IMG/VR virus record: IMGVR_UViG_3300031774_000010
Span: 1-60,111 of that record
Source: a virus
Length of the DNA stretch: 60,111 bases
Strand: one strand, 5' to 3'
Of the stretch, positions 3,920 to 46,593 are shown one piece after another. The notes under the pieces are model-generated. The model did no database searches. It had not been told where the DNA came from and was given only the letters and a program-made list of their open reading frames with translations. Position 1 is the stretch's first letter. Each line of letters opens with the position of its first letter. A program made the position numbers and the translations under genes.

Positions 3920-6070
3920 ATGAGTAACGACGTAAAGCAAGTAGGTACTCAATTTGCCAAGGATTATTTAAGTAGTGCTCAAAATAATGCTGTAGCTAAG
4001 TTAACAGCTGACGACGATGATACAGGAGGAGGTGCTTCAAATCTTACAAAGGTAAACGATCCTTCTTTGCAATCTCAAATTGCATTAATGGATATACAGA
4101 ATACTCAACAACAGTTAAATTTAGAAACTGCTGCTGAATTAGATCGTATTCAAAGAGAGTTCTACACTGATCAAGATATTAGAAGAGGTCAGTCAGAAGG
4201 AACTCAAAGTCGATTAGGGCAAATGATGGGGGGAGAGCAACAACGTTTAAGTGCAAGAGTTGCAGGAGAAGAACAAAGAAGAGGAACAGCTGAGACAGGT
4301 TTACAACAGCGTTTAGGTGCAAGAGTTGCAGGGGAAGAGCAACGTGCAGGTATTGAGACAACTGGAACACAACAACGTTTAGGAACAGCTGAAACAGGAT
4401 TCCAACAGCGGCTTGGAATGGGAGAGCAGGGGTTACAACAAAGAATGGGAATGGCAGAATCTGGATTACAACAACGGCTAGGAACTGCAGAAACTGGAAG
4501 ACAGCAAAGAATGGGAACTGCAGAAACTGGTTATCAACAACGTTTAGGACAAAGAGTCGCTGGACAAGAAAGAAGAGCTGATTTAGCAGAAACAGGTGCT
4601 CAGCAGAGGGCATCATCCAGAGTCACTGGTCAAGAGCAACGTGCTGGTATGGTTGAGTCTGGTTATCAACAACGTTTAGGACAAAGAGTTGGAGGCCAAG
4701 AAAGAAGGGCTGAATTAGCAGAGACAGGAGCACAAACCCGTGCTACTGAGCGAGTTAGAGGTGAGGAAGATAGAGGACGTATTGGAGCAACTGGTTTTGA
4801 GCAACGTCTCGGAACTGCAGAAACTGGTTTCCAACAACGTTTAGGAACAGCTGAATCAGGATTCCAGCAGAGACTGGGAATGAGAACAGCAGCAGAAGAA
4901 ACTCGTGGAACAGAAAGAGTTAGAGGTGAAGAGCAACGTGCAGGTATTACAACAACTGGATTACAACAGCGTCTTGGAACTGCAGAGACAGGCTCCCAAA
5001 CCCGTGCTACTGAGCGAGTCAGAGGTGAGGAAGATAGAGGACGTATTACAACAACTGGAGTACAACAACGGCTTGGAACTGCAGAAACTGGGTTACAACA
5101 ACGTTTAGGAACAGCTGAATCAGGACTTCAACAGAGATTGGGAATGAGAACTGGAGGAGAAGAACAACGAGCAACTCGATCTTTAGAACAAAGAATAGGT
5201 GGAGAAGAGCAACGTCTTGGTATGAGAGTAGGGGGAGAAGAGCAAAGAGCATCTCGTGCTTTAGAACAAAGAATCGGTGGAGAAGAACAACGTCTTGGTA
5301 TGAGAGTAGGGGGACAAGAAACCCGTGCTACTGAGAGAGTTAGAGGTCAAGTAGACATTGGGCGTATTGGCGCAACTGGATTACAACAGCGTCTTGGAAC
5401 TGCAGAAACTGGTTTCCAACAAAGAATGGGAATGAGAACAGCAGCAGAAGAAACTCGTGGAACAGAAAGAGTTAGAGGTGAAGAGCAACGTGCTGGTATC
5501 TCAACAACTGGATTACAACAACGTTTAGGAACAGCTGAATCAGGACTTCAACAGAGATTGGGAATGACAACTGGAGGAGAACAAACACGTGCTACAGAAA
5601 GAGTTAGAGGTCAAGAGCAACGTGCTGGTATCTCAACAACTGGATTACAACAGCGTCTTGGAACTGCAGAAACTGGTTTCCAACAAAGAATGGGAATGAG
5701 AACAGGAGGAGAACAAACACGTGCTACCGAACGAGTCAAAGGTCAAGTAGACATTGGGCGTATTGGAGCTACAGGTCTTCAACAACGTCTGGGAACTGCA
5801 GAAACTGGTTTTCAACAAAGAATGGGAATGCAAACGGGAGGACAAGAAACACGTGCTACTGAAAGGGTTAGAGGTCAAGAAGATAGAGGAAGAATTGCAG
5901 CTACTGGTTTAGAGCAACGTTTAGGACAAAGAGTTGGAGGTCAAGAGCAAAGAGCGACAAGAGAAACAGAAGGTCAGCAAATCAGGTCAACAGACTTGCA
6001 AAGAGAGATGTTCCGTCGCTATAAAGAAGCAAGAGATTATGGCCAAGCACAACGAGCTTACCGAGTATGA
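3920..6070 (+). CDS. Long 11-residue-repeat (hendecad) coiled-coil-like protein
   Basis: A 716-residue protein. After a ~85-residue non-repetitive head it is almost entirely built of 11-residue units such as TAETGFQQRLG and ERVRGEEQRAG, roughly fifty of them, then an Arg-rich tail of ~40 residues. A few units carry a four-residue insertion (RSLEQRIGGEEQRLG), giving 15. Hendecad and 15-residue periods are characteristic of right-handed coiled coils, so a long fibre, spike or internal rod is plausible. The gene overlaps the small terminase by four bases. The underlying 33-bp DNA repeat makes copy-number change likely. The exact virion role is unknown. Confidence 0.75.
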   Translation: MSNDVKQVGTQFAKDYLSSAQNNAVAKLTADDDDTGGGASNLTKVNDPSLQSQIALMDIQNTQQQLNLETAAELDRIQREFYTDQDIRRGQSEGTQSRLGQMMGGEQQRLSARVAGEEQRRGTAETGLQQRLGARVAGEEQRAGIETTGTQQRLGTAETGFQQRLGMGEQGLQQRMGMAESGLQQRLGTAETGRQQRMGTAETGYQQRLGQRVAGQERRADLAETGAQQRASSRVTGQEQRAGMVESGYQQRLGQRVGGQERRAELAETGAQTRATERVRGEEDRGRIGATGFEQRLGTAETGFQQRLGTAESGFQQRLGMRTAAEETRGTERVRGEEQRAGITTTGLQQRLGTAETGSQTRATERVRGEEDRGRITTTGVQQRLGTAETGLQQRLGTAESGLQQRLGMRTGGEEQRATRSLEQRIGGEEQRLGMRVGGEEQRASRALEQRIGGEEQRLGMRVGGQETRATERVRGQVDIGRIGATGLQQRLGTAETGFQQRMGMRTAAEETRGTERVRGEEQRAGISTTGLQQRLGTAESGLQQRLGMTTGGEQTRATERVRGQEQRAGISTTGLQQRLGTAETGFQQRMGMRTGGEQTRATERVKGQVDIGRIGATGLQQRLGTAETGFQQRMGMQTGGQETRATERVRGQEDRGRIAATGLEQRLGQRVGGQEQRATRETEGQQIRSTDLQREMFRRYKEARDYGQAQRAYRV
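4170..5990 (+). repeat. 33-bp degenerate coding repeats
   Basis: Within the preceding gene the DNA is a degenerate array of 33-bp units encoding 11-residue repeats. Some neighbouring blocks are near-identical over many tens of bases, for example the recurring GGAACTGCAGAAACTGG and GTTAGAGGTGAAGAGCAACG stretches. The similarity is internal to the gene and ends sharply at its C-terminal tail. This implies growth by unequal exchange or replication slippage. Assembly of this stretch from short reads should be treated with caution. Confidence 0.75.
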
Positions 6071-44015: not shown

Positions 44016-45500
44016 ATGGCTTACATTGGAAGACAGTTGGCACGAGGAGAAAATAGACTCTTCGATGATATCTCTAGTAGTTTTAATGGAAGTACCACAA
44101 CTTTCAATTTAACTGTTGCATCGGTTGCTACCTCTACTGCAACTCCATACCAACTCTTTGTGAGTCTTGGCGGGGTGATGCAGAAACCTGGTACAGACTT
44201 TACGACAGCTGGTAATCAAATAACCTTTACGACTGCTCCAGCAGCTGGAATTTCCTGTTGGATTATGATGCAGGGAGATTCAATTGATCAAGCTGCTATT
44301 CCTGACGGTGTAGTAACTGCAAGCAAAATAGCGAATAGTGGTGACTTTGCATTTCCTGCTGACATCCGTTTAAAAGATGGTGATGGCTCACATTATGTAG
44401 GTTTTGAAGCGCCAACAACTGTAAGTGCTAATAAGGTATGGACTCTTCCTGCAGCTGACGGAAGTGCTAATCAACTATTAACAACTAATGGCTCAGGAGT
44501 TTTAACTTGGAGTACTGTTGCTGCTGGTGGTACTACGGTTACTAATGCTTATTCCTTAGTAAGTAGTAATGCTGGAAGTGGTGGTTCTTATGTCGTTTCG
44601 CTCGGAGAAGAGGCAGGAGAGAATCTTAACACTTTAAATAATTATTATAACATCAGCATAGGGAATCAGGCTGGTTATACAGCTAACGTCAATTGGGGAC
44701 ATATATACATAGGTAAGCAAGCTGGTAAGTTTCTTACAGGTGGTAACATTTGTATTGGATACGAAAGTGGAGTAGGAGTTTCTGGATCTAGTACTGCAAG
44801 TTCCGTAACTGCTATTGGTAAATTTGCACTTAAAGCTATAACAACAGGTGGTCCTTGTGTAGCTTTGGGTAGTTATGCTGGATGGAAATTAACCTCAGGT
44901 ATTAATAACGTAATAATTGGAGATCAGTCTGGGTACAACGTTACTACTGGTGCTAGTAATACATTTTTAGGAGAAGCAGCTGGACATTCTACAACAACTG
45001 GAACTGATAATATATGTATAGGAAAGTATGCATATGGACCTACAACAGGAGCAAATAATATTCTTATCGGTACTGGTTCTACTTTATCAGCCCAAACAGT
45101 TTCTAATCAAATAACGCTTGGAAATTCATCTATATCAACTTTACGTTGTCAAGTAACAAGCATTAGTGCCTTATCTGATAGGCGTGATAAGACAGATATT
45201 AATACTTTAGATTTAGGATTAAACTTTATAAATGCTCTTAATCCAGTAAAATTCAAATGGAATTCAAGAGAAGGAATATTAAAAGATGGTAGTTATGAAG
45301 CAGGTTTTATAGCTCAGGACTTTCAGGAATCACAAAAAGACTTTAATGCTGAATACCTTAATTTGGTATTAGATACAAATCCAGAAAAACTAGAGGCAGC
45401 ACCTGGAAAATTAATGCCAATAGTGGTCCAAGCCATTAAAGAATTACTAGAAGAAGTGACTACATTGAAAACTAAGGTTGCTTTATTAGAATCTGCATAA
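44016..45500 (+). CDS. Mosaic tail fibre with attachment domain, repeats and S74 chaperone
   Basis: A 494-residue fibre. The N-terminal ~90 residues carry DDISSSFNGSTTTFNLTV, shared with the 1202-residue fibre, then a spacer and the SHYVGFEAPTTVSANKVWTL module shared with the previous gene. Gly-Asn shaft repeats (residues ~175-370) follow, then an S74 domain starting at S387 (SDRRDK) and a terminal leucine-rich coiled coil. It looks like a recombinant of an attachment domain plus shaft plus chaperone. Probable receptor-binding fibre. Confidence 0.8.
   Translation: MAYIGRQLARGENRLFDDISSSFNGSTTTFNLTVASVATSTATPYQLFVSLGGVMQKPGTDFTTAGNQITFTTAPAAGISCWIMMQGDSIDQAAIPDGVVTASKIANSGDFAFPADIRLKDGDGSHYVGFEAPTTVSANKVWTLPAADGSANQLLTTNGSGVLTWSTVAAGGTTVTNAYSLVSSNAGSGGSYVVSLGEEAGENLNTLNNYYNISIGNQAGYTANVNWGHIYIGKQAGKFLTGGNICIGYESGVGVSGSSTASSVTAIGKFALKAITTGGPCVALGSYAGWKLTSGINNVIIGDQSGYNVTTGASNTFLGEAAGHSTTTGTDNICIGKYAYGPTTGANNILIGTGSTLSAQTVSNQITLGNSSISTLRCQVTSISALSDRRDKTDINTLDLGLNFINALNPVKFKWNSREGILKDGSYEAGFIAQDFQESQKDFNAEYLNLVLDTNPEKLEAAPGKLMPIVVQAIKELLEEVTTLKTKVALLESA
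45118..45394 (+). repeat. S74-module repeat, copy 2
   Basis: The second copy of the 277-base stretch described at 43607-43883. Upstream and downstream bases differ (GCTTGG versus GTTTGG; GAGGCA versus GAAGCT), marking the edges of the copied segment. Confidence 0.85.
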
Positions 45501-45501
45501 A

Positions 45502-45774
45502 ATGATTTATTGTTTTCTTTCTAACCCACCTTTATATTTTCATCCTGCTACATGGGGGAAACCTTTAATATCTCATGGTACTTATGAAGGACTCCCACCT
45601 CAAGGACAATTAATAGCTATCATATTAGGCTTATTATTGTTCTTAGTAGGTTATGGACTCTATTTAACATTCGGTGCTGGTAAGGAAGATTTAAAAGATG
45701 CTATTGATGAACATGCGAAAATGCATGAATTAGGGATTGCACATGGGCATAATGGAAGAAAGCTTAAATCGTAA
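45502..45774 (+). CDS. PsbN-like small membrane protein
   Basis: Ninety residues. After a Pro/Tyr-rich start, residues 35-57 form a single membrane helix. The segment LFLVGYGLYLTFGAGKEDLK and then DAIDEH resembles PsbN (L..TGY.LY.AFG.....LRDP(F/W)(E/D)(E/D)H), a photosystem II assembly factor. The N-terminal ~30 and C-terminal ~18 residues (MHELGIAHGHNGRKLKS) are extra. It may modify photosystem II assembly or repair during infection. Similarity is by eye from the helix and DPF/DAI..EH tail. Confidence 0.6.
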   Translation: MIYCFLSNPPLYFHPATWGKPLISHGTYEGLPPQGQLIAIILGLLLFLVGYGLYLTFGAGKEDLKDAIDEHAKMHELGIAHGHNGRKLKS

Positions 45775-45993
45775 ATGGTTAACCTCAGAGATAAAATTAT
45801 TAAATCTCTCCTAGCCCATGCCAATGGAGAGATTCAAATCCATCTTGCAAATGTTGAAATTTATTTAAACAATCCCGCAGGTATTGGGGAGCACTCTGAT
45901 ATTACGGGAGCTATACAGGAAGAATTAGATAAGATTGCAAAATGGGAAGATCAGATTTCTGTAATTCAAAAATATCTTACTAGTGCTCGCTAA
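45775..45993 (+). CDS. Small helical cyanophage protein
   Basis: Seventy-two residues in two or three helices (KIIKSLLAHANGEIQIHLAN; EYLDKIAKWEDQI-like end). Starts immediately after the PsbN-like stop (TAAATG). I recall close relatives in cyanomyoviruses (LRDK(L/I)..SLLAHA.G.I..H.ANVE.YLNNPAG(I/V)GEH). Function unknown. Confidence 0.65.
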   Translation: MVNLRDKIIKSLLAHANGEIQIHLANVEIYLNNPAGIGEHSDITGAIQEELDKIAKWEDQISVIQKYLTSAR

Positions 45994-46011: not shown

Positions 46012-46116
46012 TCAGACAAAGTATTGAGAATATGTATATACTCCCATGATGCCCCAAAAGGTGACCATAGCGAAACGACCAGTGGCTTTTTGCCAGATTA
46101 AAGAATTTGAAGACAT
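46012..46116 (-). CDS. hli: High-light-inducible-like protein, degenerate, 34 residues
   Basis: A 34-residue product whose ATG overlaps the stop of the upstream hli (TAATG, 46118-46114). QKATGRFAMVTFWGIMGVY fits the Hli helix, but the chlorophyll-binding ExxN is QxxT here. Third of three coupled Hli genes. Hli proteins bind chlorophyll and quench excess light energy around photosystem II. This one may dimerise with the other two rather than bind pigment itself. Confidence 0.65.
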   Translation of the reverse strand: MSSNSLIWQKATGRFAMVTFWGIMGVYTYSQYFV

Positions 46117-46313
46117 TAGAAAACTCCTGGAATAATTTGACCTGTTGTGATGTAAGCACCTAATAATGCAACGAAACCAATCATTGCCCAGCGTCCGTTA
46201 GCTTTTTCAGCTTCTTCTGGGTAGCTAGTATAATTTTCTACTAGTTGTGGTTTTGCTTCTTTAGCAAAGATATTTTGCTTTCCGTACTCAGTAATGATGT
46301 GAGAGGAAGTCAT
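46116..46313 (-). CDS. hli: High-light-inducible protein, 65 residues
   Basis: Sixty-five residues with a single membrane helix and the chlorophyll-binding signature EKANGRWAMIGFVALLGAY. The C-terminal ITTGQIIPGVF is typical of phage and host Hli proteins. Its start overlaps the upstream hli stop and its stop overlaps the downstream hli start (both TAATG), so all three are translated together. It is expected to associate with photosystem assembly or repair complexes and lower photodamage. Confidence 0.9.
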   Translation of the reverse strand: MTSSHIITEYGKQNIFAKEAKPQLVENYTSYPEEAEKANGRWAMIGFVALLGAYITTGQIIPGVF

Positions 46314-46453
46314 TAAAAAATACCAGGGATGATGTTTCCAGTTGTCATATAAGCTCCTAAAGCAGCAACGATTCCAATCATGGCCAAGCGACCATTAGTT
46401 AATTCAGCATTTTCAGAGAGTTGCTGATTTACAGCAGTTTCCTTAGTAGTCAT
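46313..46453 (-). CDS. hli: High-light-inducible protein, 46 residues
   Basis: The first gene of the triplet; ATG at 46453. Residues ELTNGRLAMIGIVAALGAYM carry an intact ExxNGRxAM chlorophyll-binding motif, followed by TTGNIIPGIF. The minimal length is normal for cyanobacterial and phage Hli. Coupled by a one-base overlap to the 65-residue hli. The upstream ~140 bases hold a minus-strand terminator for the neighbouring gene and presumably an hli promoter. Confidence 0.9.
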   Translation of the reverse strand: MTTKETAVNQQLSENAELTNGRLAMIGIVAALGAYMTTGNIIPGIF

Positions 46454-46471
46454 GAGTATGAAAAAGGTATG

Positions 46472-46495
46472 AAGAAACCCCACCGAGGCGAGGCT
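46472..46495 (-). terminator. Hairpin between the barrel-like gene and the hli operon
   Basis: In minus-strand RNA, CCTCGC and GTGGGG form a GC-rich stem with G-U pairs around a CTCG tetraloop, then TTTCTTC. The T tract is interrupted, so termination may be partial. It would insulate the hli genes from the upstream secreted-protein gene. Confidence 0.45.
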
Positions 46496-46593
46496 TGTCT
46501 CTTCATATTTTATACATATTTACACTTTGTAACCGAACTTAATATTACGTTACAATCACTTATCGATGCTATTAGAAAATCTAATAATCTAGA

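Follow-up and report, generated by a model that had tools for sequence, protein, structure and literature searches.

Overlapping hli genes in an S-EIV1-like cyanophage: the third, Glu-less Hli belongs to a conserved class encoded against another Hli and is a plausible hetero-partner

Genes of the hli family are among the commonest photosynthesis genes of cyanophages, and the reason why several different copies are carried is unexplained. The stretch of DNA analysed here (the window; a viral contig 60,111 bases long) raises this question with three adjoining hli genes, the last and shortest of which lacks two residues of the chlorophyll-binding motif: is it a decayed copy, an independent gene or a partner of its neighbours? 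The major head protein encoded in the window is nearest to that of Synechococcus phage S-EIV1 (70% identical; the sole match among 50,697 phage records), and the primases of the two phages show 34% identity across 97%. Judged by these two similarities, the window is that of an uncultured S-EIV1-like marine cyanophage. Environmental genomes of this group that carry hli have already been described (gOTU G238, PMC5332604). S-EIV1 itself contains an unannotated 148-aa ORF (L086 6460-6906, minus strand) with an Hli-like C-terminal stretch, YAERVNGRIAMLT.

The triplet, which recurs as a unit of 46, 65 and 34 codons with both of its overlaps in five IMG/VR contigs (L003-L007, hereafter the relatives), lies on the minus strand between the gene for an outer-membrane-like cyanophage protein (OMP) and a convergent gene:

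44016-45500, plus strand: tail fibre gene; start common to the relatives, length variable
45502-45774, plus strand: gene for a 90-aa single-helix protein; weak PsbN-like match (E 0.001, under the Pfam cut-off); PHROG 8051
45775-45993: gene convergent with the triplet
46116-46012, minus strand: hliC, 34 aa, IWQKATGRFAM; Glu-less Hli of the hli04-like clade
46114..46118, minus strand: TAATG overlap of hliB and hliC, 1 nt; identical in the relatives
46124..46128, minus strand: AGGAG, Shine-Dalgarno-like site in the 3' end of hliB, 7 nt 5' of the hliC ATG
46313-46116, minus strand: hliB, 65 aa, long N-terminus TEYGKQNIFAKE, EKANGRWAM
46311..46315, minus strand: TAATG overlap of hliA and hliB, 1 nt; identical in the relatives
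46453-46313, minus strand: hliA, 46 aa, ELTNGRLAM, TTGNIIPG tail
46469..46506, minus strand: GC-rich RNA hairpin in the gap that separates the OMP gene from hliA, folding at about -19 to -23 kcal/mol
46956-46594, minus strand: OMP gene; Pfam Phage_OMP, E 3.5e-43

The hairpin folds in the window and in L003, L004, L006 and L007, and a terminator-like match was recorded for it; it could be either the terminator of the OMP gene or the 5' leader of the hli operon. A TATAAAAT-like box precedes it (46506-46469, minus strand). Rfam searches around the hli locus returned sub-threshold matches only. On the other side of the triplet, the tail fibre protein measures 494 aa in the window, 892 in L004 and 238 in L007, which suggests module exchange, and the gene for the 90-aa protein is kept 3' of the tail fibre gene in L004 and L007.

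The first-pass annotation had described three Hli genes of 46, 65 and 34 residues with TAATG at both junctions, two of them with an intact ExxNGR and the short third with QxxTGRFAM, and all of this proved exact. HliA matched Pfam PF00504 (24.0 bits, cut-off 22.3) and PHROG 178, 'high light inducible protein' (E 1.7e-18). An alternative in-frame GTG start at 46483 would give it 56 aa, while the 46-aa ATG form is the one common to the five relatives. HliB, 89-97% identical across the relatives, matched PHROG 178 (E 2e-25) and fell slightly under the cut-off of PF00504 (21.1 bits). Both have the ExxNGR chlorophyll motif on one short helix and would be ordinary one-helix chlorophyll-binding proteins. 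In HliC, the Glu and Asn of this motif are replaced (QxxTGR) and the Arg is retained. HliC alone matched no family in Pfam or PHROG; tblastn with it found matches in the single-cell virus AG-345-E08 and in the T7-like phage NATL1A-7. By tblastn, alignment and tree, hliC is thus classed as an Hli relative, a variant and not a canonical member.

Since 1-nt overlaps occur at five of the 62 same-strand neighbour pairs of the window, three of them outside the triplet, a single such overlap means little here; two consecutive ones would be unusual. Both are kept in the relatives despite differences at synonymous sites (dS about 0.1-2). Either junction could plausibly couple translation by termination-reinitiation. 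The AGGAG ahead of hliC is also present in L003, L004, L006 and L007, and no Shine-Dalgarno-like site was seen ahead of hliB; the protein outputs of hliC and hliB may therefore differ, and the synthesis at a fixed ratio that the first-pass annotation had proposed is not supported.

The place of HliC among Hli proteins was sought with FastTree from 33 columns of 103 representative Hli cores, and only the broad branches of the resulting tree are trusted. One branch (support 0.98) unites window hliC with hli04 of T4-like phages and the EIR/DIR/NIR class of Prochlorococcus; the clade spans T4-like and T7-like cyanophages and Prochlorococcus. Ile7, Gly13, Arg14, Ala16, Met17 and Tyr27 are invariant in 16 aligned members, whereas the positions of Glu and Asn are variable: members lack one or both of these residues of ExxNGR, yet retain the Arg. 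Besides grouping with hli04 and the host IGRPAM class, HliC has kept Arg, GRxAM and Tyr27. Glu is replaced by Gln, Leu, Ser, Thr, Val or Ala, and Asn by Gln or Ile; Thr at the Asn position occurs in the window alone. It was considered as a wider variant and discarded, as an IMG/VR scan, from which the window's own record was excluded, found none, and Asn occupied position x in all 76 IMG/VR contigs encoding WQ[KR]AxGRFAM. The host-class motif NRAIGR lacks both Glu and Asn. A search of 41 Prochlorococcus genomes with the single HliC protein gave no match, and the same query matched phage records; the idea that hliC is confined to phages was nevertheless abandoned when a profile search and the tree revealed the Prochlorococcus class within its clade. 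This profile search, of 400 genomes, picks up Hli proteins generally, so the number of its hits does not measure the size of the class. A viral scan with the host class gave chiefly weak matches and was excluded from the results.

The members of this Glu-less class share a genomic setting. For 77 of 80 distinct Glu-less viral cores, another Hli gene ends within 1 nt upstream (the junction gap being -1 nt in 52, 0 in 16 and +1 in 9). Two more were listed at 197 nt, the intervening Hli (EAELANARWAM), which sits directly ahead, having been overlooked by the motif filter; the last (L191) lies at a contig end and overlaps a partial upstream Hli by 1 nt. All 80 thus lie directly 3' of another Hli (gap -1, 0 or +1 nt), although these counts come from related sequences and do not represent independent events. 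Glu is retained in every upstream partner that could be scored. An independent pattern scan, blind to neighbours, gave the same arrangement in 75 of 76 contigs, the exception being cut at the contig end. In Prochlorococcus, all 14 scored clade members overlap or abut a downstream Glu-bearing Hli. The window conforms, hliC overlapping by 1 nt the Glu-bearing hliB (EKANGR). Tandem phage hli genes are known; a statement of this partner rule was not found among open papers.

Several known systems resemble the triplet. Hlips must dimerise to bind chlorophyll, the dimer holding four chlorophylls and two carotenoids, and under stress the short HliC of Synechocystis takes the place of one HliD, giving an HliC/HliD heterodimer for HliD2 (PMC12142464). 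As presumed for the window, a short Hli is combined there with a longer one bearing a partner-binding N-terminus, and the setting is stress-related chlorophyll handling near PSII; unlike in the window, both proteins carry the chlorophyll-binding motif and HliC homodimers also form (PMC12142464). In the window, Glu and Asn are both missing from the short Hli, whose gene overlaps that of its presumed partner. A cryo-EM structure of ChlG2-HliD2 is available (PMC13297055), and a PDB search found chains named HliD. Heterodimers of the HliC/HliD type, characterised by attachment to ChlG or Ycf39, are already known in cyanobacteria; in the window, the pairing is predicted from the genes.

Among phages, T4-like P-SSM2 and P-SSM7 carry hli03, hli04 and hli05 (T4-GC 267, 270 and 271) in tandem with 1-nt overlaps. 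Their hli04 (IFLRANGRAAM) shares the clade of window hliC but follows an NGW Hli that has lost the Arg, and retains a TGNLIPG tail; both that tail and the Asn are gone from window hliC, whose upstream neighbour is a complete Hli. T7-like NATL1A-7 has, beside psbA, a TEYGKQN-type Hli followed directly by IWQRANGRFAM, with the same OMP family adjoining; in contrast to the window, the junction is 0 nt, Asn and tail are retained and the second gene is unannotated:

L002 3998-4111 (GU071102.1 about 4793-4906), minus strand: unannotated 37-aa Glu-less Hli of NATL1A-7, directly behind the annotated 58-aa Hli

One phage OMP family thus adjoins hli genes both in the window (46956-46594, minus strand) and in NATL1A-7 (L002 4250-4606). 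The [EDN]RxIGRPAM class of Prochlorococcus shares the clade of hliC and overlaps a Glu-bearing Hli, but the partner lies downstream instead of upstream and Asn is changed to Ile.

The third gene had been called degenerate. Taken literally, HliC would be a decaying, functionless remnant carried by its overlap with hliB. It is indeed the product of the shortest gene, has lost Glu and, uniquely here, Asn, and differs from its L003 counterpart at 11 of 34 residues, against two each in HliA and HliB. Compared with the relatives, however, hliC of the window shows many synonymous changes (dS about 0.85-1.96) and a dN of 0.13-0.15, giving a dN/dS of 0.07-0.18 (purifying selection, Fisher p 4e-4 to 3e-7); its reading frame is open in all relatives, with no stops; a class of similar length occurs in unrelated phages; and an overlap of 1 nt means that hliB cannot shield it. 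Low dN/dS and conservation together show that hliC is a maintained gene under purifying selection, which rules out a pseudogene and makes a remnant very improbable. Coupling and gene order, whose loss in relatives would have spoken against the unit, are preserved in all five. 'Degenerate' is accordingly the wrong word: short forms without Glu make up a conserved class, and only the change of Asn to Thr is peculiar to the window. As separate observations on the relatives, dS in the same contig pairs is 0.10-0.34 for hliA against 0.85-1.96 for hliC, a hint of recombination within the unit, and in L004 the coupled unit is lengthened by a 72-aa ORF (5302-5520) that shares 1 nt with the hliC stop and is absent from the corresponding position of the window.

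Two further explanations accept hliC as a functional gene. The triplet might reflect compaction only, that is, tandem Hli duplicates packed in the usual phage manner, each Hli acting independently or as a homodimer. Phage genomes are compact, 1-nt overlaps occur at three other sites of the window, and many Glu/Arg-complete Hli genes are solitary or spaced; but compaction leaves unexplained why every Glu-less Hli, unlike the other classes, sits directly behind another Hli, and why this recurs in several phage groups with a similar rule in hosts. It is judged possible, though rather unlikely. HliC might instead bind no pigment and serve in regulation or assembly, as a peptide capping or destabilising Hli dimers and so freeing chlorophyll for phage-directed D1 repair. 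Both of its side-chain ligands are altered (Q, T), host-class NRAIGR is likewise without both, and in the related protein LIL3, substituting Ala or Asp for this Asn gave a colourless protein (PMC8617258). The conservation of Asn in 76 of 76 WQ[KR]AxGRFAM contigs makes pigment contact likely for most of the class, and a pigment-free role for HliC is improbable.

The reading favoured on balance is that hliABC forms one translationally coupled unit and that HliC is a dedicated hetero-partner of a Glu-bearing Hli. In LHC structures, Glu of one helix ligates a chlorophyll and pairs with Arg of the other helix, and Asn ligates a further chlorophyll. A helix with the Arg and no Glu, always encoded beside a Glu-bearing one, fits a hetero-partner completing the Glu site of the other. 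HliC, coming from a ligand-poor clade in which the Arg of ExxNGR is constant and Glu and Asn dispensable, would most likely dimerise with the Glu-bearing Hli encoded next to it (HliB, perhaps HliA), its Arg pairing with the chlorophyll-ligating Glu of the partner. On its HliC side, such a heterodimer would offer fewer sites for chlorophyll, and the canonical ligands of an HliB-HliC dimer would come mainly from HliB. The overlap would allow HliC to be synthesised while its partner is made and inserted, presumably to serve photoprotection or the handling of chlorophyll at PSII in infected cells. Against this stands the presence of the Arg in both HliA and HliB. The first-pass annotation had proposed a hetero-oligomeric pigment complex; the partner rule makes a hetero-oligomer plausible and better supported than before; that the complex binds pigment is inferred.

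A broader pattern is suggested by the distribution of Glu and Arg. Among 293 distinct viral cores, both residues are kept in 155, Glu is missing from 70 and Arg from 68, and in no core are both missing (Fisher 6e-10, uncorrected for kinship and thus suggestive only). The classes that lose the Arg (NGW, NGQ, NGY, NGI) retain Glu. Tentatively, the Hli homodimer might have been split in picocyanobacteria and their phages into charge-complementary halves, the Glu-keeping, Arg-losing classes just named and the Arg-keeping, Glu-losing hli04/IWQ class, produced as coupled pairs so that only heterodimers close the Glu-Arg chlorophyll site; window HliC would be an extreme case of an Arg donor, its Asn ligand having been lost as well. 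Strict complementarity, with a partner lacking Arg, is found in 52 of 79 pairs. As a rule for all pairs it was rejected: 27 of the 79 upstream partners, including that in the window, carry both residues.

HliC belongs to a conserved class whose genes, wherever the neighbours can be read, directly adjoin that of a more normal partner, which suggests that the two proteins act as a pair. The partner rule turns the question of why cyanophages carry multiple hli genes into a testable claim about heterodimers. The Glu-less class also explains why some phage hli genes escape standard motif searches and annotation, and it supplies naturally occurring proteins from which individual chlorophyll ligands are absent.
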